64,000 nt of DNA from Pseudoscleropodium purum (lineage: Eukaryota > Streptophyta > Bryopsida > Hypnales > Brachytheciaceae), in the NCBI GenBank assembly GCA_963969395.1, contig OZ017796.1, positions 15,936,501 to 16,000,500 of the forward strand, in the 5' to 3' direction. Positions 8,227 through 61,900 of the stretch are shown one piece after another. Made by a program: the position numbers and the translations under genes. The first letter of the stretch is position 1, and each line of letters starts with the position of its first letter. The notes beneath the pieces are model-generated. The model saw only the letters and a program-made list of their open reading frames with translations. It had not been told where the DNA came from and ran no database searches.

Positions 8227-10857
8227 CGAGAGAACCAACTTGAAAGCGAAAGGATCCTGAATCCAGGAAGGAACGTAGGAGAGGCCCAGGTCAGCAAAGC
8301 CATCTGAATTCATTACTTGCTTGTGATACAGGAAATGAGGGAGGTTAACCCTTGGTTAACTAACTTTGATTGAGTTAATTGAAGGCTCCAGAACAGCATC
8401 CTTCCCTATTGAGCTCCAACCTGCCTCTCTGGCTACTGATTTTCATTGTAATTGGAATACAAAACAAGTCCTGTCACTCAGAGCTCTATCCAGCACAAAT
8501 TGGGAAGAAGTTCTTTACTAAAGCAAGTTCAAATTCTTGAGCTCTCAATTCAGCAAAGGAAGTTGAAAATTGCAATTGTGAATTTGAAGCTCATCCAAGT
8601 AGTGGTGAAGGATGGGAGAAGCTCAAAAAGTCAAGGTAAGACACTATTTAAAAGTCATAAGCATTTCTTTGACATAGTTTAAGTTGGTGCCAAAGTTAAT
8701 GAATAAAAAATAAATTAAAGAATCATTTGATGTGGAAAAATTCTAGAAATTAGTTAAATCAAGGAAAAAGTTAGAAGAAGCTTAGTTGGCTAAATTTGAC
8801 TTCAAAAATAGATTAGCAACAATTTAAAAGAGTAGATTTCCAAAGATTGCCTTTGAAAAATTAAGGCCTTGGTGAAAAGAAAAGGAAAAGAAGTAGAAAG
8901 AGAATAAAAGGCAATTTTAGAATAGAATAGAATGAATTGAACAGGAGAAAAAAATTAAACAATTAACATAGAGTTTCAAGGGAAGAAGGAAGGAAGATAG
9001 GATAACCATTGATAAAAATACCCAAGGAAGGAAGTACACCATGCTAGAAAGAAGGGGATAATAATCAAAATTGGAACAAAAGAGAGAAATGTGGACTATC
9101 CACTAATTTCTAATTTCTCAAATGCCAACAATCAAAAATAAGGAGAGGAATGGAAGAAGCACACAACCAAAGAATGGACTTCACAATACCATTTGAGCAT
9201 GAGTTGATTGACAATATCAAGGTGAGAGCTTAATCCCCAACCACTAATTATGTTTTAATTTTCATTTAAGTCTGAAGTTCATATAACAACTAGGACCCTA
9301 GGTAGAATTAGGACCAACCCCTTAGAATTATTTTGAAAGCATAATTAAAATTAAGAAACTCATAGAAAAATTCCATAGCTTTCTAAAAAGATATTTGACA
9401 TTGAAATCTGATAGAATTTAACATTAGAGGATTTTTTCACCCTTGGGAGGGTTGTGGGTTCCCACATTGTGGAAACAACCCTACAAGGGGCCATGGTAGC
9501 TCGCTGATGTGGCATGGTGACTACCACTTTTGAAAAAAAGAATTTTTTTTTTTCTGTTTTTTTCTGCATTTCAAGAGTATTTATTTATTTATTTATATTT
9601 TTGTTGGGAATAGTCATTCCCCAAAACTGCAAGGGAGAGGAGTTCTCGACGCACTTGCTTGAAGTGGCCCTCCTTGAGCCTAGAAATCCTTAATGAGAAT
9701 TGGTGAGCGAATGAAGTTGGTATAGAAGTGGATGAACAATTAGATATTCATCCAAAGAACATTTTGGAAATATCTTAGAAACTAATTAGAATTAATTCCA
9801 AGAGTAGAAGTCAAAGAAGGTCAAAGTAGAAGTAAATTCTAAACTTCTAGGGTAAGCAAGAGTTACTTAAGAATTTGGGTTAATCGGTCAACAATCGAAA
9901 TTCATTCATGAATAACATCTACCAAGAGGTAAAACTAAATTTATATTTTCACCTTCATGTGGTAAATTAAAAAGTTATCACAATAGATGCAAAGTAATCA
10001 ATTAGCTAAAAATAGAAATTGAGCGGTGAAACAATAAGCAAATAAATTCCAACTAATTAACCAAGAAAGTACTCAAATATTAGCATAGAAAAAAAATTAA
10101 AAAATTAAAAAATTAAAAAAATTAAAAAAGAATAAAAATAAGAATAAAAGTAAAAACATAAACCTTAGAAGTAAGATTAATTATACATAGCTAGTTGGAA
10201 AATTAAGGTAAAAGTCATTAAGAAATTTGGAAAAAAATACGACTAATAAGATTTAGCCAAGAATTACTTCAAATAGAGTGAAAGGATTATTAGTAGAAAA
10301 ATTATTAGAAAATTATTAAAAATTGCATAACTTTTTTATCGAAAAATCGAAATCAAATTCATGAAGTGGAATTAGACAATACTTTGAAAATAAAATATTT
10401 TGGAAATAATGCTCAATCCTTTTTGGCATTCTCAAGTTTGGACCTAAAAGCTTTTAATTTATTAAAGGAAATTTGAAGGATAACTTGACCCAGCCCCTTA
10501 AAACCTACCTTAATAAAAAAATTGTATCCAAAAGTTTACCTAAGATCCTCAATCTACTTTGATAGTCAAGAATTGCTTGATTTTAATAACTTCATTAGGG
10601 GTAAAAGTAGGATTTAGTAAAAAAGCTCCATTGCTTGATAGGCAGCTCGTTTATTACAAACCACTCACCTATAGAATTGAACCAATAATAATAGAACTTC
10701 GTTGTGTATGTTGGAATTTGAAGGTGGAGTTCTGAACACTTACTAAAAGGACCATGAGTTCTTAGACCATGGTGAACAAGAAAAACTGTACTACTACAAT
10801 GTCACTACAATAGTTTGACATAGTCAAAATATTGTGATGTCATATAATAATATAATA

Positions 10858-16443: not shown

Positions 16444-16725
16444 ATGGTTGTCATAGTGGACGGACGTCCGGTTTGCCCGTCCGTTAAAGGTACCACCCGT
16501 CCGATACAGTCAACACATAGTTGACTTTCTGATAATGGAAAAATAGGCCACGTGGATGCCATGTAGATTAAGGAACATGTTGGGCGCGGACGAGATCATC
16601 CGCGCCCTGGATTTCGCATTCCGAGGTGACGTGTCATTCCGCAAAATTGCACAAGTTACAAAATTAAAGTTGTCAGTTCCGTCCGTCCCGTCCGATGACC
16701 CTAACTCGCCCGTTATAACAACCAT
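16444..16725. mobile_element. GTCCG-rich miniature element, copy 1
   Basis: The ends are ATGGTTGTCATA and TATAACAACCAT, an inverted repeat with one mismatch. The interior is rich in GGACG/GTCCG/CCGTCC. It is closely similar over most of its length to 58690-58937, including AGTCAACACATAGTTGACTT and AAATAGGCCACGTGGATG. No clear target duplication longer than the AT at each end is seen. The ends (CATGGTTGTC in copy 2) resemble the hAT end CAGGGTTGAC in this window, so a hAT relative is possible. Confidence 0.75.
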
Positions 16726-16739
16726 GGAAACACTGGCTA

Positions 16740-19230: not shown

Positions 19231-21994
19231 TCATAGCATCAGAGGACCAGCATCATTTGTCATGGCAGGCACCAGAGCAGCAGGGCGAGCGGAGAAACTC
19301 GTGGCCTTGGCATAAAAGTTGCCCTTGCCTGTAGATCCAGAGTCCGTGAAGAAAGCTCCCGCCAGGAAGACGTCGCCCAAGCTTCTCCAGTTCCACTTCT
19401 CCCATCCATCAATGTCGCTGCCGTCGTCGTCGATGCGCTTCGTCACCTCCTTGAAGGTGCCGGCCATGAAGAAGTTGCCTTCGCTGTTGATGGTCGGATT
19501 CTCACTTCCGCCGATGGCGTACATCAACCATGGACTGTAGAAGTTGTTCACAATGTGGAAGTATCCAAACCGACATCTGAGAACGAAACGGATCCATCAG
19601 CCATTGATATCTAGCTCCGAAGAAAAACATAACTCCAATGTAGGGCTTGAGGCTCGATGCAAGGAGGGAGGAGGATTAGATCCCATATTGCTAGCTAGCC
19701 CTTCTTAAAATTAACCCACTGCAGAATTGAATTTGATAAAGAAACACAACTGCTGAGATTCAAGCGCATAAATTCATCCGCAGGTTAGGTCAATGCAATC
19801 AATGAGATTGGAGTGCATACACTCATCCTCAAGGTCAAATATAGTGCAGAATTTTGATGTCTGAGACATTGCGTATTGTGATCTCTTAGCATACGTTTCA
19901 TCGAAGGCAAAAATTGTAAAGGGGAACCAACACAATGTAATCTTGAAGATCTCACTATTTGATATCTAGGTCCATAGCTGAATGCATAATGTAACAAGAA
20001 AAACAAGGGATCTAGCCCCAAAGTTGGAGATAGATCGAAATGGGCCGCTACGTACCTCGGAATGCGCTCCACGAGCCCCTCCCCGAAGTGGTTGAACGCC
20101 ACCGTGACCTGCATCCCACTGTCGTCTCTGTCCTTGGAATGCCCTCCGAGTAGCATCACCTTATCATGCTTGGTAAAGTAATTGTTAGAGATGGTCACCG
20201 CAGTCGACCCCTCCGTCACGTCCACCAACCCATCCGCGCAGTGCGCCAGAAAGTTATGATCAATCCAAACATCCCTGGAGCCATAGATCGAAATCGCATC
20301 CCCGTCCGCCTTCCCCCGATCTCCCGCATGATCCGGACTGCCTCGAATCACCGCAGGCCCCGTCTGCTTGATATCGTGAACATGCAACCCATGAATGATC
20401 ACATTGTGGACGTACTGAATGGTAATACAAGCCCCTCCCGCGATGTGCACGTTCACGCCTCGCCCGTCGATGGTCTTGTAGCTGTTCACGATGAGCTCGT
20501 TCTTTAGCTTGATGTTCATGTTGCGAGAGAAGATGATCCAGAGAGGCTCCGTTTGCATGGCGCCGTAGCGGAGTGTGCCGGGGGTGGGGTTGATGACGTC
20601 GTCGTCGCTGGGGTCCGTTACAACGTAGATGGCGCCGTTCTTGCCGCCGATGGCGTTTTTGCCGAATCCGACTGCGCAGTCGGCGAGTGATTGACGGTTC
20701 GCACGCCAGTGACGGTCGCAACGCCAGCAATCATCGATGGGGTTGCCGGTGCCGCAACCCTTTAGCACTCTGCGTGTGGAATTTTCTGGAACGCTGCAAC
20801 AGTTTCACAATGGTTCTCAGGTTAGCTTTGTCGAAAATGGATCACTACAACAGGAAGTGGCTGTTGCAACACATCATCAATTTTTTTTTGCAATGGTTTT
20901 CTGGCGGTTCCGTACTTTGGTTTAGACTCATGGTCTATTGTAAACCATTTTAAAAGAGCTGCAAAGTTGTAGCAAAATTATTGAGCACGGAACCAGTGCA
21001 CATCTATGCCTAAAATGTTGCAAAAACTATTGCATTTGCAAATATTTGCTAACACATTGCACAATGTGTTACTATACCATTGTAAATTTTTTAATGGAAT
21101 TCTGAAGGTCATTGCAAGCCTGTCGCAAACATTATTGCAAACATTTCTGCAACACAGCCTTCTTGAGAAGTGTGAGAAGTGTGTACAAGTGTGAGAAGCC
21201 ATGGCTTTCGAAAACAACGAATTTCAGAGTAGTGTACTTAGGAGGCACAATGTTTAACCGTAGTTTCTGGGAATGGCTTTCTAGCGCGCTTTCTAGCTCA
21301 GCATCAATTTGAATGTTTTGCAACTACATCTGAGAGATTCCAGCTCCGGAACACAGTATGCTTAAAGATCAGACAAAAGTGCGAAACTAATCGCAAAATC
21401 GCAATCTGAAAAAATTGAATCTGGGACAGCCAACCATTCTTGGTAAGAATGTGTTCAACGTGAAGTGATTCCATCCAATGTTGGAATGGGAAAACCCGTA
21501 GGAAGGGATGGAAGTGCTAGGTACTTTCAAACCCATCTCTTCTGAATTTATCTAATTAGATGACCTTAGATGAGTCTCCGCCATTAGCGATGATGAGTCT
21601 CAAATGGAAGAATATGGAAACCAATTTTCAACGTTGAAGACAATGATCTACTTCTTTGAAATGGGTGACAATTTCCAATTAATGAGAGTAGAGTCCCAGA
21701 AAAAATGCGTGTTTTCTACACGAAAAATTCTGGCGAACAATGAGGATCTTCAATGATGCAAAGGGCAACATTTAAACTCGCTAATGGCATTCACCTCAGC
21801 CGCAGAGTAGCCATGGCTTTCAAATACGGCAAACAAACAAAATCTGGTCACCCAGGAGCTGCAACATAGGTTTACCTTTCAGTGAAAACTGGTGCAGAAA
21901 TTTCGCGAGAGACTTCTGACTCCATTGGCCTTGCTGTCCAACACAGGGGTAACATTGCTACCAGCACGAGCAGTGACAGTGCGTTTGACGCCAT
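19231..21994 (-). CDS. Pectate lyase (polysaccharide lyase family 1), three exons
   Basis: A secreted Ca2+-dependent enzyme that cleaves de-esterified pectin by beta-elimination in the cell wall. Proposed exons are 21994-21876, 20793-20056 and 19576-19231, giving 400 residues, which is normal for the family. Introns are 1082 and 479 bp with sites GAAAG|GTAAAC...TTGCAG and GAG|GTACGT...CTCAG. Residues 1-21 form a signal peptide ([20 protein letters not shown]). The mature protein has [19 protein letters not shown] (about 53-66), Ca-site DGDAI (203-207), WIDHN (216-220), CADGLVDV (225-232), and the catalytic RxPxxR motif as RIPRCR spanning the last splice junction (283-288). The C-terminal YAIGGS and NWRSLGD blocks are present. 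I start at this ATG because it opens the signal peptide; an upstream in-frame ATG would spoil it. All key residues are intact. The large intron carries an apparent repeat insertion. Confidence 0.93.
20850..21170. repeat. TTGCAA-rich insertion inside pectate lyase intron 1
   Basis: Within this intron segment the words TTGCAA, GCAACA and TTGCAA.CAT recur about ten times in both orientations, for example TGTTGCAAC, ATTGCATTTGCAAATATTTGC and ATTATTGCAAACATT. This looks like the subterminal repeats of a nonautonomous transposon. It begins close to a CACTACAACAG motif at 20843, but no matching end or target duplication was confirmed. Confidence 0.35.
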
Positions 21995-33922: not shown

Positions 33923-34201
33923 CAGGGTTGACGAATCTCAACATCCGCCCCAAAATAGCGTCCGTTTTCCGGACGTCCGGACGCTAGCGGACACAGCGTC
34001 CCGACCGCCGTCGGAAAGTGGACGGACGGGGCGGACGGCCCGAGGCGGACGCCCAGATCGTGCAGACCAGATTAGTCCGCGCGTCGATGGGACGGACGAA
34101 CGGGGCGGACGGGGGACAGGCGGATGTTGCGTCCGCCGGACCGCGAATGCCAGCGGACACTACGGACACAGCGTCCGCGTTCGGACGTCGTGTCAACCCT
34201 G
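33923..34201. mobile_element. Nonautonomous hAT miniature element (279 bp)
   Basis: Ends are CAGGGTTGACGAATC and GTGTCAACCCTG. The flanking 8 bases are GTTGGTTA on both sides (33915-33922 and 34202-34209), a perfect hAT-type target duplication. The interior is packed with GTCCG/CGGAC words. Its left part (CCGCCCCAAAATAGCGTCCG) and right part (GACCGCGAATG.CAGCGGAC) match the two ends of the 9.75-kb element at 35988-45739, so it is an internal-deletion derivative or relative mobilised by the same transposase. Confidence 0.95.
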
Positions 34202-35979: not shown

Positions 35980-35987
35980 AATGACGT
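35980..35987. repeat. Left 8-bp target-site duplication of the hAT element
   Basis: AATGACGT immediately precedes the CAGGGTTGAC end, and the same eight bases follow the other end at 45740-45747. An 8-bp duplication is the hallmark of hAT insertion. Confidence 0.95.
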
Positions 35988-36004
35988 CAGGGTTGACGAA
36001 TCTC

Positions 36005-36120
36005 TACGTCCGCCCCAAAATAGCGTCCGTTTTCCGGACGTCCGGACGTCTGGACGCAGCGTCCCTCCCGTCGTCGGAAGGCGGACGCGCGGGGCCGGGC
36101 GGACGGACGGGGCGGCTTAG
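36005..36120. repeat. Left subterminal GTCCG/CGGAC cluster
   Basis: About ten GTCCG or CGGAC words in roughly 115 bp directly inside the left terminal repeat. Sequence closely follows the left part of the 279-bp derivative. In hAT elements such subterminal words are transposase binding sites; that role is inferred here. Confidence 0.7.
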
Positions 36121-36466
36121 AAAACCCGTTTTGGGTTTTTTGTTTTGATTGTTTTCACCAATGAGAGATTGAGAGTGAAGTCATTTTGATTTTGATTTTT
36201 CTTATATTGCAATTGCGATTCAATAGAGTTGTATATCACTATTTATATAAAAGCTAAAATATGAAATATATTTTTAATTTTTTTTGTTGAATTTCATTTT
36301 GATTTAGAAACAAAATCACTTTAAAATCCAGCGAGATGTATATCATCAATAAACAAACAATTTTATAATAAAATGATTGAAGAAACCATTGTCATTTGTC
36401 AACATGAGCTCCATATATCATGAGCAACTAAACAATCAAACATCTAAATTCACATCTCCACAATTC

Positions 36467-39400
36467 CTATGGACGCCAATCTACATCTCCTCTAACCTTA
36501 GCCCCACTACTCTCTCCTGCAGCTCTCCGTTCAAAATCTTCATTATCGGAGTCATCTTCATTGTCAGAGTCATCTTCATTGTCAGAGTCATCTTCATTGT
36601 TGGAATCAAGTATTGTTGTCTCCTTCAAGTCTTCTCTCGAAGTAGGTTTATTCCCTTCTTTTGAATTTAATTTTTCTTTTTTTACTTTGACAGAACGATT
36701 AAAGGCTTTTTGAATAGGAACCTTTCTTTTCTTTCTATTTGACAAAGTAGCAACATTTTCATCAAGAGGGGTCCTATTCTTCAATGGAGAGATAGCAAAA
36801 GGTTGCATTTCTCTTTTCGCTTTCACGTTACTCGATTCTTGAACCATCAATTTCGATGTAAAGTCGACATGTCCATGAACGGTTATCTCCACTTTGGCTT
36901 TCTTTTGAAGTAATAGAGTGCCGTTTGTTGATTTGATGGATTCTTGTGCCATTCCTTTTGCTAAAATGCGAGCACGCAAAGATGCCAATGGCATCCGATC
37001 ACTATCCGTATCACTTAGGCTTGTAGGTGATGACGCTACTTTCCGTAGATTACCGCCTGTAGAAATTTCTTTGGAAATGTTCATTAGACGTTTTCCATAT
37101 CCAAAGCTCTGAAAATCATTCAATCGTGTGCTAACAGACTTCAACGGTATTGGTGGAAGAGCACTAGATCTCGGTACTTCAAAAATTGACTTCATTGGCT
37201 CCTTTCCTTTATCACTCTTCACAATTGCCGAATTTGTGACTGCCATCCCAAGTGAATCATTATTTTTTTGTACCGCAATATTTGGTTCCCCCTCATCACC
37301 ACTATTGTTGCCCACATCTTTTGGAACGTCCACCTCCATGACTGCATCTTCTCTTTTGTCGTTTCCTTGCACTACATTTAATGCCACAGATGGAGATTGA
37401 GAAATTAAAACTTCTTCATTTCTCCCATCATCATCAATAGCATTCTCATTGATTTTCACCTCTTTGGCAATAGCGTTTGCCTTTTCCGATAGAATGTTTT
37501 CGCTATTCAAGTATCCCGTTCTATTGCAATATGCAGCTAAAGAAGGTAGATTCTCCTCTCCCCCTACATTGTCCTCGTCTTCACAAAAGGTATATGCATC
37601 GTTTGCATTGTCGGGAACGACATCCTTGCGGTTTAGATGATAATCATGCGTATCATTCACCAAATCGGGAAAGTCTTGCATAACGTCTTCATCTCCCCAT
37701 GCTGTCGCACGATTGAAGTCATCTCCGCCATCTACAACTGAAAGGGCCCTTTCCAAATCCTCGTCATCATTGTCATCATCGTCTTCTAACATCGGCCTAT
37801 CTGAATCCTCTGATTCCATCGGATCCACATTATCATTATACCATTTTTTTTCATTTTTTTCCTTCGATGCGTTTAATACTTTGGATTTGGTATACACGTA
37901 CACCAAATCCGTTGCTCTCTCCGGCTTCAATTTATTTCGAGATTTGTTGTGAACAAAAGAATAGTTGCTCCAATTCCGTTCATATGAAGATGATGACACC
38001 GGTTGAGCCAATATCCTCTTCGCTAATGGAGCTATAAACTTGCCACATGCACCTTCAAAATCCCACCAAGCATGTGCGGACAACATTTGATCTCCCGGAT
38101 TCAACATATTGTGGAATGGAGGTTCCTTGTGTCGAAAAGCTACAAATTCCTTCACCACTGCTGCATATTCATCCGGTTTACATATTCTCTCCAAAACTTT
38201 TTTACATCCTGACATTGCATTTGCGTCATCCGCTAGCTCTTTGTCATGAAGAAGGTATGGATTCAAAAGAGCTGCGGCTGATTGGAGATCGTTGTCCACC
38301 ATTCTTCTTCGGGCATAAAAAGACTGTACCAATGAAATTGCAAGTTCTTCTAGCAAACAAAATGGTGGACTTTGTAATCCATTCACGTGCTTCTCTAACT
38401 TCCTCATGATATGCAACACCTTCCCCATGCATGGTGATTTTGAATCCAAATCGCGGAGTGCACATATGATTGGTTCAACCATCTCCACATAATTGATGGA
38501 CCGATTCCAAAAATGGTCATCAAGAACAATTTTCTTCACCGCTAAGGCCAAGTCTTTTGGTTGGACTTTAGCTCTACGTTTCTTCTTGAGAATATGTACA
38601 TACTCAACCCATTGCGGATCTACCACCGTTTGTTCCAATGCTCCTCTCAATTTTGTCAAACGCTCCATCATGATAAATTTAGAGGTGAACCTTATATCCC
38701 CAGGCATCAAAAGACCAAGATTTGGCGAATACTTTCGCAATAGAGCTAGCGGCATATGTATCTTCCTGATAAATTTAGCTACAAGAACTCCTTTATCCAA
38801 TTTGGAAGCAATCCATTTCTGTGCAGCCCAATCCTTCAACAACAAATTCAATGCATGTACCACGCACCCTTAGTAAAAAATATGAGGATATTTTGCAGAT
38901 ATTACATCCCATGCGGACGAATTCACGGGAGCATTATCCGTAGTTATTAATACGACGTTCTTGGACCCCACTTGTTCAATGAACTTTTCCAACACAGTTG
39001 CCAAGTACTCCGCATTTTTTTCACAACCACTTGTATCCATAGATCCAAGAAATTCTTCACCTTCGGATGATACAAGCATGGCATTGATGAGAGGTCGATT
39101 AGTCACCGAGCTCCATCCATCAATGAACAATGTTGCTCCAAATTTTCGAATGCTATCTTCAGTCCGTGCATTCAACTATGTTTGAATGTTGGTCTTCGCC
39201 TCATTCAACAATTTGTACCGAAGGTCGTGGTATGAGGGAGGAATGTATGGCCTACCAAACGCAGCCGTTTTCTTCACTACTTCTTTAAAAGCTGGATTTC
39301 GAGTCACGAAAAATGGTATGTTCGCCAAATAGAAAAAATTTGCCCACACTGAATGTAATTTGCGTCTATGACCTTCTTCAAACCCATTCACTAAGCTCCC

Positions 39401-39943
39401 TTGCCTCTGAGGCCTAGAACTTAATGCCCTCGGGGTTTCACGTTCACCAGAAGCTTCCGTACTCAAAGTCATTTCAGTTGTGGCACATACCATTGATACC
39501 AATTCTTTGGACGCTGGACAAGAGTCTTCGTGGTCAGAATGCGACACAGCCTTTCCGGCCGAAAACTCTTGGACATCTGAAGGGCCAGGGTTGCCATCCA
39601 CATTGTCCATTACAATGCGTTTTGGAAAAACTCCTTCGCAATGCCGAAATAAATCTCGAACTGCCATTGATAATCGTGGACAAAGGCTCACCCCTTTATC
39701 ACGTGCACCTCCGGGCCCAGAATAGTCTAAGTGGCTGAACATACGGCTGAGCTTCCTTGACATGCTCGCTTTGTAAAGCCTACATTTTACTTTACCACCC
39801 TCTTGCACACTAAACCAAGGAGAAAAATCCCCTGTTAGTTTGGCCACTATACTGACAAGTGTATGTTTTACCTCAATTTCAAAAGAAACCAATAAAATGT
39901 TTTCAATTTGAAACCCACAACATGACAATGTATACAATATCAA
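36467..39943 (-). pseudogene. hAT transposase with BED-like, DUF659 and dimerisation regions, two in-frame stops
   Basis: A single reading frame runs from 39943 to 36467, interrupted only by TAG at 39176-39178 and TAA at 38870-38872. In order: a BED-type finger at residues 51-90 (C54, then Y57 where a Cys is expected, H71, C88); an acidic linker; a DUF659/RNase-H region with FIDGWSS and TTDNAPVN (two catalytic Asp candidates); GCVVHALNLLLKD (the C-x2-H motif); PGDIRFTSKFIMMERL (the RW/RF motif); and the C-terminal dimerisation region ending SSSYERNWSNYSFVHNKSRN. A long acidic tail follows, with an EDDSDN repeat from an 18-bp microsatellite at about 36540-36600. The protein would cut and paste the element. 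The true start may lie in an upstream exon, since the frame near 39943 lacks a clear beginning. Confidence 0.9.
36535..36600. repeat. 18-bp coding microsatellite
   Basis: The unit CATTGTCAGAGTCATCTT is repeated about three and a half times in the transposase C-terminal tail, encoding EDDSDN on the minus strand. Repeat length is a multiple of three, so the frame is kept. Confidence 0.85.
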
Positions 39944-40149
39944 TGAAATTAGTTACACAAAGCTTTGAAAATCAAAGCCCCCTCGTCCACCGAACTATGC
40001 ATTACCAAGCAAGAGACTCAATAAATTGAAGCTCATAGCCCTTGGAAATCTTAGCGTTCGGTTTTTCGAGAGTGAATACCAAAGCTTCTCTTCAAACATT
40101 TATAGTCTCCTCCAGAAAATTAAAGGTTCATTTTTAGGGTTTCCATTTA

Positions 40150-40325
40150 AAAACAAGAAACGGCCCGAACGGGGCTGAAGCGGACGGGTCGGACAGGGCG
40201 GTTAGACGGGACTGTCCGTACTGTCCGCCTTCCGACGCCGTCCGCGCTTTGGACACACCGACCGCCCCACTTAAACACTGACCGCCGAAGGTGTCCGCCC
40301 AGTTGTCCATTGGAGCATCCTAAGA
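40150..40325. promoter_or_regulatory. Internal GTCCG/CGGAC cluster upstream of the hAT transposase
   Basis: About 200 bp upstream of the first transposase codon on the minus strand lies a run of CGGACGG, CTGTCCGTACTGTCCGCC and CGCCGTCCGCGC-like words. It has the same word content as the terminal clusters but no terminal repeat. It is a good candidate for promoter or autoregulatory sites, by inference. Confidence 0.5.
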
Positions 40326-40379
40326 GGTCGATATTACTCAAAAAGAGTGGTAACATTTCAAAAAAAAAATAGCCTAATA

Positions 40380-43080
40380 ATCACTGCTAAATGAGGATCA
40401 ATGTAATTGATTTATCATTTAAAAAAAAAAATGTAAACCCTAAACCCTATACCCTAATTACCCTAAACCTTTTCTTTTCTCCCCTAAATTGTTTTACGAA
40501 TGAGGAGAATGTGGTTAAGTTGAATATGTTTGGATTATTTACTCATATTATCCTTTTAAATAGGTTTTGAAAAGATCTAAAGATGGTGGGGATTTTTTTA
40601 AAGTTCATTAGGAAATCAAATGTTTTGCAAAAATAATCAATTCCTTTTTCATCATAAGCAAATGAAATTTTTTAAAAAGGCCCCAATACATAATTAGAAT
40701 AACAGTTTAATGGATTTCAAACTCATGATATTTAATGAAAGGTTGTGTTTTCTAATTAGAAGTGCATCACGATCTTCAAATGAACATCGAGTCTTTCATA
40801 TTTTTTAATGAAATTTTGATTAGATTTGAAAACAAAGAAAAAGAATCAATGTTTTAACTTTCAAATCATGTATGGCTATATTTTTCCTTAAAAACATAGA
40901 AAAATTCGTTACTTGAATTGATTGAGTAGAATACATTATACACTTATACATGTGCTATATTTATTTTGAAGGGTAATTCCAATATTCTTATTTCAGATGT
41001 TTTTAAATATTAATTTAAAAAAAAAGAGGGTTCATTGTTTAAAGATCTAAAAAATTGACAAACATAATTTCTATTATAAATAGGAATTGAATTCGGAATT
41101 CGAATTTTGAAATGATTCAAATGAACAAGATATTGATTATAAAATATTTCTTTGTTTGAGTTTTCAAAATGAATTCACGAAACAATTGCAAACTTTTGAA
41201 TTTAGGTATATGATATTGTTTTCGGTTTGTACTTTGTAGAGTATAATACTTCAATTTTAATCCTAAATAAATGAAAAAACTCCACATGAATGAAATGTTT
41301 CTATGTATTGCACAAAGATTTCTACCAATTACTATGATAATTAAATACATTGTTACATTTCATAAAATATTCTACATAGAAAGAAAAAATCATTTCAGTT
41401 TTCAATCATGATAAACGATGTCTTCTACTCTTTATGTTATATGTTCGTTTTGTATAACGTGTACATTGTACAATCTTTGAGAGCAGGGGAGTTCATTTTT
41501 GACTCTCATTGAAATAGAAAATATATTTGTGTTTGGATTTTGAAATCATTATCTCATTATGTATTCTACGGTCTTGCAAGAATGCATCTTGCTCCTTCCT
41601 TTAAATCCTTTTGATATTTTTTTTTTCCTTTGCTTTCTCATAGGGCTCTTGTTCTTTTGTTCTCTTCATTTGACCAGCCTATTTGGCTTGGCTCTTAGTT
41701 TTTTTCTTTTTTAATGCAATGGTTTATGCATATGTTATAAAAAATATATATTATTTATTTAAAATTAATATATTGATGAACAAACACATAAAGGCATTGA
41801 ATGCTTTCACATTTAAAGTTATAAATCTATCCTAAATCACTCTTGCAAATTTGAATGATTGAATCGAAAATTTGAAAATGTAATTACAAGAGCTTTCAAT
41901 TCAATCAATTGCATAAATCATAAATGTTGAAATGCAACTCGTATGAGTTTAGCATCTATGAAGATTAATTCATGCCATCCATATGCAATTTTCCAATTTA
42001 ATAAAATGCAATTGAGTACTTCAATTTCTTTCCCTTCAATTCTCCAAGTAACATTCACTTCATATCTTTCTCTATTTGTTTATTTAATTTTTGGGAATAA
42101 ATGGAGAAACCATCTTTGTCTATATTTGCACATGCACTCTTATTTGATTGATGAAGAATAGATCTATGAAATATATAATCATTGATTTGTTCATGTTGAT
42201 TTATCTAATATATTTTATATATGTATATATATTTATATATATATATCATTAAAGGAGTATGGAAGACAAGATTGACAGATTGTGTTCAAATGTTGTTGAT
42301 TTTGAAATGATTTAGTACTATATCATTTATAAGAATATTATAATAATATTATGTTATAATATTCCTAAAACAATTGCAACAAATATTAAAATACATGCTA
42401 AGCTAGGTTTGTTAGCCTACCAATTGTTCATTAATAGACATAATTGAGTAGCCCCCTTAAATGAAACATTCAATATCTAATATCTTACAATCCAAATGGT
42501 GGATTTGTCTAAAATTTGTTCCACGTCTTTTCCAACTAATTTACTACAAGATCCTACGGTTACATATGCCTAAAAGTATTTTTCTTTCAAGACTTGGTAT
42601 TTGCACTACTACTGGCAGTTTTGAAGTGTTTTTAGTGAAAAGAACTTTAGGGGTTAAACATCTATACCATGAGATTTTGAAAAAAGAACAATTTGCTTCA
42701 TTGGGGATAACTATAAGTCCATGCTCTTTTTCGATAGCCAAAACACTCTTGCAATGACTTGGACATTTAGCGGTTTACTAAGTGATTAGACGTCAACTAA
42801 TTCAATTTAATAGTAGAATTTTTATTCAACTACCTTCTTACAATTGCTTTATACACAATGCAACGTGAATATTTGGGTACATATATTAAACGTCACAATC
42901 CTTTCGTGAATTTTTGCACATTTTAGCTCATATCTTTGTACAAAAATATCATTTACCAAGAATTCATAAATTTGGTCATAAAAGAAGGCTACCTTTTTTA
43001 ATTTCAAATTTTACATTGAATGAATGAAAAGTTAGTTGAACTATACAATGCCATGAAGACCTCTGTTTATCGTGCAAAAT
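40380..43080. other. AT-rich spacer inside the hAT element
   Basis: No transposon gene is visible. A CCCTAAA-like cluster occurs at about 40434-40470 and a copy of the dispersed repeat seen at 690-885 lies at about 42473-42665, so part of the spacer is made of older repeats or host sequence carried by the element. Confidence 0.4.
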
Positions 43081-43095
43081 ATGGGTTTAGGGTCA

Positions 43096-43580
43096 CTTTA
43101 GGGTCAAACCGCCCTGTCCGCCCTCGTACCCGTCCGCCCCATCTGCCCAGACCCCGTCCGCCCTCGAACCCGTCCGCCCTCATACCCGTCCGTCCCATCT
43201 GCCCAGATCCCCGTCCGCCCCGATACCTGTCCGTCGTCCGCCATGTCCACCCCGTCCGCCTAGACCCCCGTCCGCCTCGATACTTGTCCGCCGTCTGCCC
43301 TGTCCGCCGCGATACCCGTCCGCCCTGTCCGTCGGATTCGCCGTCCACCTTGTCCGCCCCGTCCGCCCCGATACCCGTCCGCCCTGTCCGTCGGATCCGG
43401 CGTCCGCCCTGACCGCCCGTCCACCCCGATACCCGTCCGCCCCGTTACGGCGATGCGTCCGCCCCCCCCCCCCCCCCGGACCGTCCGATCGGACGGACGG
43501 GGCTCTAGGGTTTCGGGGAGGCGGACGGCCGATCCGTCCGCCACCCCCGGCCCGTCCGATGGGGCGGATGGGCCGTCCGC
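43096..43580. promoter_or_regulatory. Dense GTCCG array upstream of the kinase-like gene
   Basis: Nearly 500 bp of short units built on CCGTCCGCC, CCCTGTCCG and GATACCCGTCCG, with a C homopolymer of about 18 at 43457-43478. It ends about 200 bp before the kinase ATG at 43776. Units are irregular rather than a strict tandem array. It is the densest CpG stretch in the window. Possible roles are transposase binding or promoter; neither is shown by sequence alone. Confidence 0.55.
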
Positions 43581-43775
43581 ATTGTCACTTTTGCTTTGCT
43601 CCTTGTGAATGCAAGGTGGAGCGGAGAGCTTGGTGGTTCATCCTCCATTGGCTCCTTTCCGAGGCAAGGCAAGAGTGGTTTATTGGGGCCTCCTTGTTGC
43701 CAATTTTTTGAACACTTGCGCGTGAATTCAATTTCAAATTAAAAAATTTGATCTATATCAATTTCATTTGTCACG

Positions 43776-45234
43776 ATGACGAAGGGGAAGAAGAAGGTTA
43801 CGAAGCTTAAACATGGAGAGGGACCATCAAACTTGGAGGTAGCTCGCCAAAGTCCTTCGGAGGAATGTAAAAAATTCATAATTGAGCGCATCATTCAATT
43901 TTATGAATCGGAAACAACATTGTCTTTAGACAATAAGTACATCAGATATCAAGAGGAGTGCGTGTCTAAATTCAAGGTAGACATGACACAGATGTTGTTG
44001 GATGCATTGAATGTGGCGAAGTGGCATGACGAAATGCATAAAACGTACTTCACCAAATGTTTGGAGAATAAGGTTCATGACGCTTTGTGGAATTCCAAAG
44101 TCATTTTGGTTAAATATGGCAAGGAATATCGACCTAATGACGCCCAGTTTGAAGAAGTGATTCTGAAAGCGGACTTATTTAGGGGGCGATGTGCTCCATT
44201 CGCCAAAACGCACAATCGAGTTGGTTCAATTGGTTGGTGGAAAAGCAATGATGGAGTTGTTGAAGCAGAAAGGACCAGACGGCACCTCATAGCACTTCCA
44301 GATACAGCACGCGTGATTGCTGTTGATGATAGAACGATGAGAGGTGGATATGCAACAATTCGAAAGGTTCGTATTGAAGGATGTCCAGGAATACTTCCTC
44401 ATTGGGAGTTTGCGGCAAAGAAATCCATTCACCACCAAACTCGACCTGATCTTGCAAAGCTAGAACATCAAAACGAATCAATGGCTGTTCAAATTCCACA
44501 CACGGGTGTGATACGGTTTGCTGCGGTGCACGGAACGACGTGTGAAGGTTATGCGTATTGGTGGAATGGTGGGACTCTTCGACAAATGTTGAATATGGAT
44601 AAGGACTTTCCAGACAACATTCAAATCCGTTTGATGTATACGAATCCAACCGAAGAGGAGGTTGTAAAAGCTCACCATTTAGGACGATATCGGAAGAAGC
44701 GCACGGAGTTGACATGGGCGTTTATGCATATAATGTGTGCAGTGCATCTTGCTGGACATTTGCACAATGATCTTTCTCCGGACAACATCTTGTTGCATTT
44801 TCTAGAGGATGAGTCACGTGTGTACATTGGAGTTTGCGATTGAGGCATGACCACCTTAGCTTCTTAGCCAATGAAGTCTTTGTACACATTTACATCAGCA
44901 AATGAGATGAAACAGACTTTGCAGAGGAGATGGTGGGTGGATCCACGTATTGCATATTTGCATAAAGTAGGTGCAGATGTGGAAGTCATTCCGATGTATT
45001 CACGTAAGTCGGAATGGAAACAACATGTCAGAGGCGTATTTCAACGTGCTACGAAAAACACCTAGTGCGACACAATTTGCCTTTCATGACTTTGCAAAAG
45101 TGTTTTATGCTTATTTGAAGCGCATTTCTTCGAAGACTGACGATGAAAATACTAGTTTGGCCCATGTGATTACGCGATTTTCTAATACATATCGTTGGCC
45201 GATGCCAGATGAACATTTCCGCCATTTATATTAG
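43776..45234 (+). pseudogene. Divergent protein-kinase-like gene inside the hAT element
   Basis: The first 355 codons are open. Residues 1-180 form a basic and helical N-terminal region of unknown type. Then come kinase features: a glycine-loop-like RGGYATIRKV (189-198), the ATP-site lysine in FAAKKS (212-217), a helix-C candidate LEHQNES with E230 or E234, a hinge-like EGYAYWWNGGTL (257-268), a catalytic loop HNDLSPDNILLHF (330-342, HRDLKPEN in ordinary kinases) and CD followed by TGA at 44841-44843, where a tryptophan codon (D-W-G in place of DFG) would be one base away. A second stop, TAG, is at 44865-44867. Coding similarity continues with RRWWVDPR and DVEVIP, then a frame change at about 45020-45040 leads to a final segment ending 45234 (WPMPDEHFRHLY). 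The family is unknown to me beyond the kinase fold. Three lesions make this copy a pseudogene. Confidence 0.8.
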
Positions 45235-45564
45235 ATTGGTAGTGCAGAAGTAATAGTTGAATAGGTTATATAGGCATTAAAAATTAGTTTAGAAATATAG
45301 AGTTGGAATGAAAAAAATTATATGTGCAATTAGCCAAATGTGCACAATGTATGGTATTCTACATTAAATTGAATACATTTTGCCCATATTGATTATGTTT
45401 GTATTTGTGTTGATCTCGATTTTTTAAATAGTATATATATATATTTGAAGTCACAAACTTTTTTAGTTTGCCTTTTGAAAATGAATTGGAATTTTTTCAT
45501 AGTTTCAAGACTATCATGGACTCATGGTCAAACTTTATAATCTTTTAAATTGTTTAAAGATTAA

Positions 45565-45739
45565 GGGAGTGACCGCGGGGCAGTTTGGGTAGGGCGGTCG
45601 GGGGAAATAGGGCCGTCAAAGCGGATGGGGCAGACGGGGTGGACGGGGCAGTCCCGGCGGACGCTACGTCCGCGGGGACCGCGAATGTCAGCGGACGTTG
45701 CGGACACAGCATCCGCGTCCGGACGTTGTGTCAACCCTG
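45565..45739. repeat. Right subterminal GTCCG/CGGAC cluster
   Basis: The last 175 bp of the element contain GGACGGGG, GACGCTACGTCCGCGGGGAC and CAGCGGACGTTGCGGACAC-like words. The terminal 90 bp are close to the right end of the 279-bp derivative at 33923-34201. Confidence 0.7.
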
Positions 45740-45747
45740 AATGACGT
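45740..45747. repeat. Right 8-bp target-site duplication of the hAT element
   Basis: AATGACGT directly after the GTCAACCCTG end, identical to 35980-35987. Confidence 0.95.
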
Positions 45748-58689: not shown

Positions 58690-58937
58690 ATGGTTGTCAT
58701 AGTGGACGGACATCCGGTTCGCCCGTCCGTTAGAGGTCCCGCCCGTCCGATACAGTCAACACATAGTTGACTTTCTGATAACGGAAAAATAGGCCACGTG
58801 GATGCCATGTGGATTAAGGAACATGTCGGGTGCGGATGAGATCGTCAGGGTGCGGACAAGATTCTTTTTTGGAATGAAAGTTACAAAATTAAAGCCATCC
58901 CGTCCGATGACCCTAACTCGCCCGTTATGACAACCAT
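58690..58937. mobile_element. GTCCG-rich miniature element, copy 2
   Basis: Ends ATGGTTGTCATA and TTATGACAACCAT. It is closely similar to 16444-16725 through AGTCAACACATAGTTGACTTTC and AATAGGCCACGTGGATGCC, and near the right end through CCGTCCGATGACCCTAACTC. An internal segment is shorter and contains a local duplication of GGTGCGGA. With one base more on each side the ends read CATGGTTGTC...GACAACCATG. The flanking eight bases do not match, so a target duplication is not shown. Confidence 0.8.
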
Positions 58938-58949
58938 GGTAGTGACAAA

Positions 58950-61900
58950 AATGAATGGGTTTTAAAAAGGTTGTTGAAAATTTTATCCTTGGTGTACAAA
59001 TCTTACTTCACATTCATTTGTTCCATAGTCAGAATACTCTTGTAAAATAGTCCATTCATTAGTAAAAAAATGATATTTTACCTAGTGGTTAATCCCTCAA
59101 GTTTCAATGCCTTTTTCATTTGAAACCACTCAAAATTGCAATTTCTATTGCAAAGAGCAAAATTTATTGCAAAAAGCAAAAAACATTAAATTTTTTCCCA
59201 CATCAAACTAGAGGATCTTGCACTAGACTAGTGTAAGAATGTATGGAAGAAATTTTAGAAAATTTGATTGTGTACATTGCAAAATTTTTGCATTTAAAGT
59301 GAAGAAAACAAGTTTTTTTGCACCTTAATCTACTAGATTTTTTTACTTTCAATCTTCTTAGCTAAAAACTTTTGCACTATTGATTTTGAAACTCTAATCT
59401 TTTATGTTGAAGAATTGAGTTTAAGAGTCTAGGATAAAAATTTGAAAATCAACAACTTAATTTTGACTCATGAAAAAATTGTTAAATAGTAGTTTCAAGA
59501 TTGAAGGGAAAACTAAACCATTAATAGTACTAAGAAGGAATTGAAACACAATAATCATTAGATATTTCATGAGGCCATTGGAAGATTGCGAGATCCAAAG
59601 ATGTTCCTATAAGTCTACCTTTGTTGGTGGTTGTAGTTGGAACAAATTTGATGTGGTCAAAAGACTACACATCAAACAAGGGAATTATTATATCTAAACA
59701 GTTGTTTCAATTTAAATTAATAAAAAAATGAAAGAAAATCTAGAAAATCCATTTATAATCCATTGATTTAGTTACTTATCTATCATTTGACCATTTACCA
59801 TAAGAAAATTTTTGATGGCAAAATTAACAAATGAATCTATTGACATTTTGTGAGATTGAAGGGTAGAAACTAGAGAGGTTGTTTTCATAATGACATGCAT
59901 TGTCCATCATGAATCCTCAAAGTGCATGCCACATGGGATAATTTGAAGATGAGAGCTTAGCTACTCATTGTCAAACAAAGAAATTGTGTCTAAAGTAGAA
60001 TTTTAGACCTCATTTTGACATAATAGCCTAGCAAATTTGGGCCATCAGACCACCAATCATTAACATTCTTGAGAAGCATTCATAAGCCTTCTAAAAAATA
60101 TTTCAATAAGTGAAAAACTTTTGGAATTAATGAAAACCAAGTTAAAATGGCCCTTCCATGGATCCAATCTCTTCTTGATGCTCAATAATGAGATTGTTCA
60201 AGCAAAAGATCTTAACCTTGTGAAATTTTTTGTTTTAAAAAATTGTAAAGATTAAATTCAAAAATGAATCCTACAACTTATTTTTCAAGAAGATGCTCAA
60301 ATTGTCAAAAAAATAAGCTATCCATAACTTTACATCACTAATCTAAATAGAATGAATCAATGCTTCCCATGTAGATAAAAAATACACTCTATGAAAAAAA
60401 AATTAATTTAAAAAAAAAAATTCTTTTGGGTTTCTTTTGCCCACCAAACTAATATTTGAGCTTACTGTGCCATAACTTTTGTTCATGTGCATTGATTAAG
60501 ATAAAAATTATATTCCCCCAAAGCTAGTTTATTTTTACACCTTCACGAAAAGTTTTGGAAAATTATGACAAATATTTAGACTATAAAAGCCTACCAAAAA
60601 TCCAATTTGTCCTTCAAAGGAATAATAGAATTTTAGAAATAAAATTTGGCAAAAAATACTTCTAAAAAAATATTCCAAAATTTTGGAATAATATTTTTGT
60701 AAAAAATGTATGAAAAAAAAAATTATCAATTTCTAAGCATCTATTGCATCATATTTGTCAACTTTAATTAATTATTCAATATTAAGTGCCAACCCTAACC
60801 ATTGCAAGTAGTTCTTTTATTAGTATATTTTAACCGCTGAAGAACCAAACACATTTTTTTTGGCAACATGGTGTTTTCACTCATCGATTAACAAATAGTT
60901 TTAATTTTTTTCTTTGAATTTTCAACACAATATGTAGATGAGGAGTAGCTTCAAGTTGTAACAATTTTTATAACATTTGACTATATGATCAAAAAATTAT
61001 TGTTTAACATATAGTTTCTTTCAAAGTCTAGGGAACCCTCTTGATAGGTCAGTAGCTTGAAGAAATCCATTTTATGAAATAAAAATTTGAAACTGGTTTT
61101 CTACATTTATATATACTTGAAAACTTTTGAAGGTTATAAAGTGTTTTAGTTTGTGAGCAATTATGGAATATCCATGCCAAAATAAACTTTGAAGTCATGT
61201 TTAAACTCAATTTTTATTTTTAGAAAAAATAAAAATAGAGGATGTAGATTGTTTATCACAACATCACAAATATTTTTCAACTTCGAATTTCTTAATTTTC
61301 TAACTAAATTCTTAACAATTTAGTATATTTAATCATACTTTATCACTTTTTTCTTATTATTTTTTTCAAGCATGAATATGAAATATATTTTATATGTATT
61401 CTCAACTTATTTCTTCAACATGCTATGGAAAAGATGCAAGTTGTAGGATGTGCACATTTTTGGATGAAATTTAGAAAGTGTTGAAATTACTTCTTTTTGA
61501 AATTCAAGCATCATAATCTTGCAATTGGAAAAGTTTTCTACTCTTAAATTTCAAGAGGGTGTAGTCTAACAAGTTAATTTAAAGATCCTATGGATGAATT
61601 TGTTAATGAATAAATATTAATAAAGATTTTAGCCATGCTTTGGATACAAGTATTTTAAAGCAATTTTGGGCCTAAAAACATTGCAGTCTTTAGGAAACAA
61701 ACCCTCTTTCTACTTTATTCTATAAAATGTAGAATGTTAGAAGACAATATTATATACTTATAGAAATACTATGTATGATTGAAACCACATTTAGAAAATG
61801 TTAAGAGATTGGTGGTTTTGTACTAATGTTTTGTGTAAGAGTCATATAAAATTATGAAAATAGCTTCCATTGGTTTTCTCTTGAAGATGCTAGCTAGGAC

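Follow-up and report, generated by a model that had tools for sequence, protein, structure and literature searches.

A decayed moss hAT transposon that carries a protein kinase gene beside its transposase

The window analyzed here, a stretch of 64,000 nucleotides from the moss Pseudoscleropodium purum (contig OZ017796.1 of assembly GCA_963969395.1, positions 15,936,501 to 16,000,500 of the forward strand), contains a transposon of the hAT superfamily in which a transposase gene and a protein-kinase-like gene are read divergently. We interpret it as a decayed member of a hAT lineage that has several genes and in which the protein kinase is a standing part (probability of roughly 0.88). At many loci of the genome the two genes are found in divergent orientation between shared ends, inserted as one unit where the duplications are preserved, and a sister form has the same ends and keeps the kinase, with a RING-finger gene instead of the transposase.

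All features examined place the element in the hAT superfamily. The short terminal inverted repeats (CAGGGTTGAC/GTCAACCCTG) are perfect across 10 base pairs (bp), and the insertion is flanked by a perfect 8-bp target-site duplication, AATGACGT. In Pfam the transposase matches DUF659 (E value 2.1e-22, 79.9 bits vs a cut-off of 34.7) and the dimerisation region Dimer_Tnp_hAT (PF05699; E value 1.1e-7, 32 bits vs a cut-off of 21.4), which makes it a hAT enzyme and not a Tc1/mariner transposase of the TBE type. Its start is zinc-finger-like by eye, and the long acidic C-terminal tail, unusual among hAT transposases, shows conserved stretches near PFA-SP and the C-terminal SSGAEVKGDSDY (alignment, judged by eye). 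About 1.8 kb to the left of the element lies a gene-less relative of 279 bp, overlooked in the initial annotation, with left and right ends 87% and 83% identical, respectively, to the matching ends of the large element; because its two ends match them, both outer ends of the large element can be assigned to one mobile family. The initial annotation had described a single hAT insertion with inverted ends and a perfect 8-bp duplication, enclosing a transposase read leftward and a kinase read rightward, and this description holds, size and orientation included.

The linkage of the two genes was followed across the 313-Mb assembly (52 contigs). With the kinase as query, 1419 first-look candidates were obtained and 114 copies scored; with the transposase, the figures are 1074 and 71, and in both cases the scored copies include that of the window. 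Nine more kinase copies (L022-L030, which rank last among the thirty best) were examined together with their flanking DNA. The same transposase stands in divergent order beside the kinase in seven of them, and in the other two (L025 and L027) the same ends enclose the kinase and a RING-finger gene in the place of the transposase. Perfect and mutually different 8-bp duplications flank four of the nine (L024 AGAAAGCT, L025 GTTTTATA, L028 TCTTTTTC, and L030 ACTAATTG), the duplication of L027 has one mismatch, none is found for L022, L026, and L029, and L023 lacks ~300 bases of its left side. The expectation that several elements with different target duplications would hold both genes divergently is thus borne out. 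By coordinates only, a scored transposase (71 in all) lies in divergent orientation at 4-8 kb from 29 of the 114 scored kinases, as compared with a mean of 0.048 such pairs and a maximum of 1 in 500 trials of random placement (contig C49 was taken as 11.0 Mb there, a guess; it is longer, with a match at 11.46 Mb). With the kinases of a search with the relative P0010 included, 34 of the 71 transposases are paired. Eight of the 41 unpaired transposases were probed: kinase DNA is present at the expected place in four (L048, L052, L053, and L055) and further along in two (L056 and L057), one piece ends 18 bases into the kinase (L058), and one shows no kinase match (L049). A chance capture at a single locus is rejected by the recurrence of order and ends at many loci, by the different duplications, and by the 29 pairs against 0.048 at random.

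Several near inverted pairs of gene-bearing copies with equal scores were also noticed (for example C1:2666020/2681549, C1:41126616/41147258, and C48:14744502/14763386), which are either inverted duplications or assembly folds. At L055, one element carries a short family derivative nested inside its kinase.

The RING-kinase form is best seen in L025, where an open frame of 1075 amino acids with a RING finger (L034:4431-7655) occupies the transposase position. The match of this frame to zf-RING_11 (E value 2.7e-5, 24.2 bits) is under the cut-off of 27, and two of its six relatives, P0100 and P0104, exceed a RING cut-off. In the genome, the RING gene gave 1577 candidates and 43 scored copies, and for 13 of these a scored kinase lies divergently at no more than 15 kb (12.6 kb in one case); kinase DNA was found beside 5 of 8 probed RING genes without a scored kinase. 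The longest contigs of the relatives P0101 and P0103 are equal in size to those of the transposases P0083 and P0093 (17649 and 7321), and since the sizes agree exactly, the genes appear to share these contigs; RING gene and transposase would then be close to each other in other organisms as well, although the hints are indirect. Both L025 and L027 hold a third reading frame between the spacer and the kinase (about 9094-10353 of the joined copies), whose start contains CxxC and whose tail is rich in Ser, Tyr, and Gly, and the same frame is present in L050 and L051, which adjoin transposases. The three copies that cover the relevant place (L025, L027, and L051) have a TAG at the same internal position, for which an old mutation, an intron, or read-through are candidates. 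Among eight sampled elements, the left ends of six transposase forms begin ...CTCTACGTC and those of two RING forms ...CTCAACGTC; because of this difference, the ends may mark the form.

The kinase of the window is damaged, with 2 stops and 35 gapped positions in comparison with the L025 copy, and the first stop sits where relatives have the W of a DWG motif. The initial annotation held that the kinase had decayed no more than the transposase, which is incorrect: the transposase has the same number of stops, two, but its gene is over twice the length, so the kinase is the more decayed per base. No Pfam kinase family matches the window copy alone at E ≤ 1. The family, on the other hand, has the sequence match, the catalytic residues, and the bilobal fold of the eukaryotic protein kinase superfamily. 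Pkinase is matched by 31 of 33 members of the family alignment at E ≤ 0.01 (best 9.1e-12; P0001, with 24 bits, is under the curated cut-off of 31.7). The catalytic residues of kinases are a Lys, a Glu, HxD...N, and DxG; K217, E236, D334, N339, and D357 are invariant in the 33 rows, H332 and G359 are conserved in at least 90%, and DFG is replaced by DWG (DWA in P0072 and P0073). Searches of solved structures (PDB) returned nothing below E 0.1 by sequence and nothing below 1e-5 by profile.

The other 113 scored copies of the kinase show 92-96% identity, and all 87 places scored with the query P0010 belong to the same expansion (54-56% identity). Counted by hand, 69 of the 114 rows lack a stop within the 355-amino-acid query, in agreement with the expectation that some kinases would be free of stops, and 43 combine a stop-free query with an open frame of at least 504 amino acids. 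Intact related kinases with conserved catalytic residues occur in other organisms, including Ceratodon purpureus (kinases P0026 and P0040), in frames of ~480-545 amino acids and with identities down to 29-35%; scans of viral and prokaryote contigs gave no relatives. That the kinase is more than a captured fragment, as initially proposed, is supported: it is a resident, multiplied, full-length family. Eight copies lie 1.2-2.8% from the consensus and, together with stop-free transposase frames, suggest recent activity of the family.

Selection was assessed by NG86 on trees and by a test corrected for the mutation spectrum, using 29 of 30 kinase copies (L020, with 433 gaps, was dropped) and all 15 transposase copies; the intact set comprised 10 copies in the NG86 run (among them L010, with a one-base insertion) and 9 in the corrected test. 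The NG86 ratios of nonsynonymous to synonymous change (dN/dS) are 0.22 on internal and 0.47 on terminal branches for the kinase, and 0.55 and 0.61 for the transposase. C-to-T changes predominate in the non-coding spacer, and because NG86 ignores this spectrum, its values are set aside and the corrected test is relied upon. Measured against the spacer spectrum, kinase variants shared by at least two copies give an omega of 0.63 (p = 0.004; the test is rough, as recurrent C-to-T changes are included). The majority sequence of each of the two genes is free of stops.

Several results weigh against a lineage in which the kinase is a standing part. Shared variants of the transposase are not significantly constrained (omega 0.74, p = 0.077), and singletons are neutral in both genes (kinase 0.91, p = 0.51; transposase 1.08, p = 0.54). 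The prediction of a kinase dN/dS below 1 is therefore modestly positive once the C-to-T bias is allowed for, since it holds for shared variants and fails for singletons; such a pattern is as expected if copies decay freely once inserted while the multiplying lineages stay constrained. The divergences of the two genes in 8 elements are not significantly correlated (Spearman 0.36, p = 0.38; Mantel r 0.35, p = 0.15), and in other organisms no hint of transposase and kinase on one contig was found. Three of the 8 probed RING genes show no kinase DNA in the piece examined (one has third-frame DNA, one a right end, and one nothing). Finally, copies with the same ends and no kinase, named beforehand as evidence for chance capture, do occur. 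The exact left-end pattern is present 1138 times in the genome (reversed control, 0), and of the first 20 occurrences along contig C1, 17 belong to short derivatives that have both ends and no gene, 2 open into a transposase, in each case with a scored kinase, and 1 into a RING gene. Thirteen of the 17 measure 243-384 bp; the duplication is perfect in 10 of these and has a single mismatch in the other 3 (for one, the comparison covers 7 bases). The remaining 4 have a changed right end. Abundant short derivatives of this kind are usual for such transposon families; the converse case, a kinase without transposase, is represented by 2 of the 9 examined copies.

The layout of the element is given in Table 1. 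The motif GTCCG/CGGAC occurs 54 times, and 49 of these occurrences fall into four blocks, one at either end and one ahead of each gene. Profiles were prepared for the window element and seven of the nine examined copies (L022 and L023 were left out), and the seven show a similar pattern, with an extra block in the two forms that have the third frame.

Table 1. Features of the window that belong to the hAT element and its gene-less relative.
Feature	Position	Strand	Remarks
Whole hAT element, 9752 bp	35988..45739	.	ends CAGGGTTGAC...GTCAACCCTG
Left target duplication	35980..35987	.	AATGACGT
Right target duplication	45740..45747	.	AATGACGT
GTCCG-rich left subterminal block	35988..36130	.	8 motifs
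hAT transposase gene	about 36467..39850	-	DUF659, hAT dimerisation region, long acidic tail; 2 in-frame stops
GTCCG-rich block upstream of transposase	40150..40330	.	6 motifs
A+T-rich intergenic spacer between the divergent genes	40331..43089	.	no GTCCG motif
GTCCG-rich block upstream of kinase	43090..43600	.	29 motifs
Protein-kinase-like gene	43776..45234	+	from ATG 43776; ~500 amino acids in undamaged copies; 2 stops, gap with frame shift
GTCCG-rich right subterminal block	45560..45739	.	6 motifs
Gene-less relative, 279 bp	33923..34201	.	both ends of the same family; own 8-bp duplication GTTGGTTA

Elsewhere in the window, a pectate lyase-like reading frame was recognised by eye at 19785-20804 (minus strand), and two repeat pairs are present, 16444-16727 with 58690-58939 (80% identical) and 1-224 with 61147-61367 (75% identical).

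The arrangement of motifs suggests that a protein of the element binds the GTCCG blocks, which would be putative sites most simply of the transposase, and such binding would tie the expression of the genes to transposition. The transposase may act in trans on the shared ends and thus mobilise the short derivatives and the RING-kinase form as well as its own. The two internal blocks among the four could also be taken as relic ends of two adjacent elements, one with the transposase and one with the kinase, that fused at this locus only. This is highly improbable and was rejected, as the same divergent order recurs at many loci, several of them with different duplications; the additional block of the third-frame forms, moreover, makes one block per gene a better fit than lost ends. 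The lineage as a whole may still stem from an ancient fusion. Recent hitch-hiking, in which a chance capture gave one hAT element a kinase without any role and the resulting chimera was amplified, would agree with the neutral recent singletons and with the fact that the scored copies represent one dominant expansion in this genome. It is nevertheless improbable, given the constraint on shared variants, the retention of the kinase in the RING form, the GTCCG block that precedes the kinase as it does the transposase, and the occurrence of the same kinase family in Ceratodon and other organisms at the sizes and identities given above.

With the kinase taken as a standing part of the lineage, it would be a trans-acting accessory enzyme, and its target can be approached from the gene content of the forms. 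Phosphorylation of the element's own transposase, with an effect on activity, localisation, or copy-number feedback, is a tentative option that would suit the presence of both genes on one element and the long acidic tail with its conserved stretches around PFA-SP and SSGAEVKGDSDY, but the kinase is also kept in the transposase-free L025 and L027 (though these could serve in trans). As the kinase is kept there without a transposase and beside a RING protein, host targets are weakly favoured: the chance that it acts mainly on host proteins limiting the element (silencing, repair, or cell-cycle factors) may be put at slightly less than even. Some other target is unlikely. A more speculative extension, which we would not yet back against its negation, is a modular hAT lineage that splits its genes between forms (transposase-kinase and RING-kinase, with a zinc-finger-like third gene) sharing ends and promoter motif; kinase and RING protein would serve as a counter-defence by which silencing or repair factors of the host are disabled, and the forms would cooperate in trans.

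Elements of the hAT superfamily such as Ac have an 8-bp duplication, short CAGGG-type ends, a dimerisation region, subterminal repeats, and many short non-autonomous derivatives, all of which are shared by the moss element. To our knowledge, classical hAT elements encode a transposase only; unlike them, the moss family has a kinase and, in its sister form, also a RING-finger gene and another reading frame. Accessory genes beside the transposase are known from VANDAL21 and MuDR of the Mutator superfamily, and VANC of VANDAL21 is an anti-silencing protein that acts on short element motifs. These are likewise DNA transposons with accessory genes, but they belong to another superfamily and have no kinase. 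Captures of the Pack-MULE type, which are usually fragments of host genes, can also place kinase-like sequence in a transposon; the moss element differs in having a full-length kinase family, and no close host relative of this kinase was found, with no direct search of host kinases made. The nearest parallel found is in the TBE transposons of Oxytricha, which also have a kinase-like gene and show purifying selection on all three genes, with an overall dN/dS of 0.1-0.3 (PMC4724952). TBE elements have a Tc1/mariner transposase, a ciliate host, and three genes, whereas the moss element is a hAT transposon, and the two kinases are likened by description only. TBE apart, a limited search of titles and abstracts found no transposon with a resident kinase in the literature, and a hAT lineage that keeps a kinase does not seem to be described in the literature so found.

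In general, hAT transposons are regarded as one-enzyme parasites. If the present reading is true, hAT elements build multi-protein strategies, in which a full-length kinase is kept and the transposase can be swapped for a RING gene while ends and kinase are retained. It would then become possible to test whether transposons turn protein phosphorylation and ubiquitin-type enzymes against the control exerted by the host, and how short motifs couple the expression of several genes to transposition.

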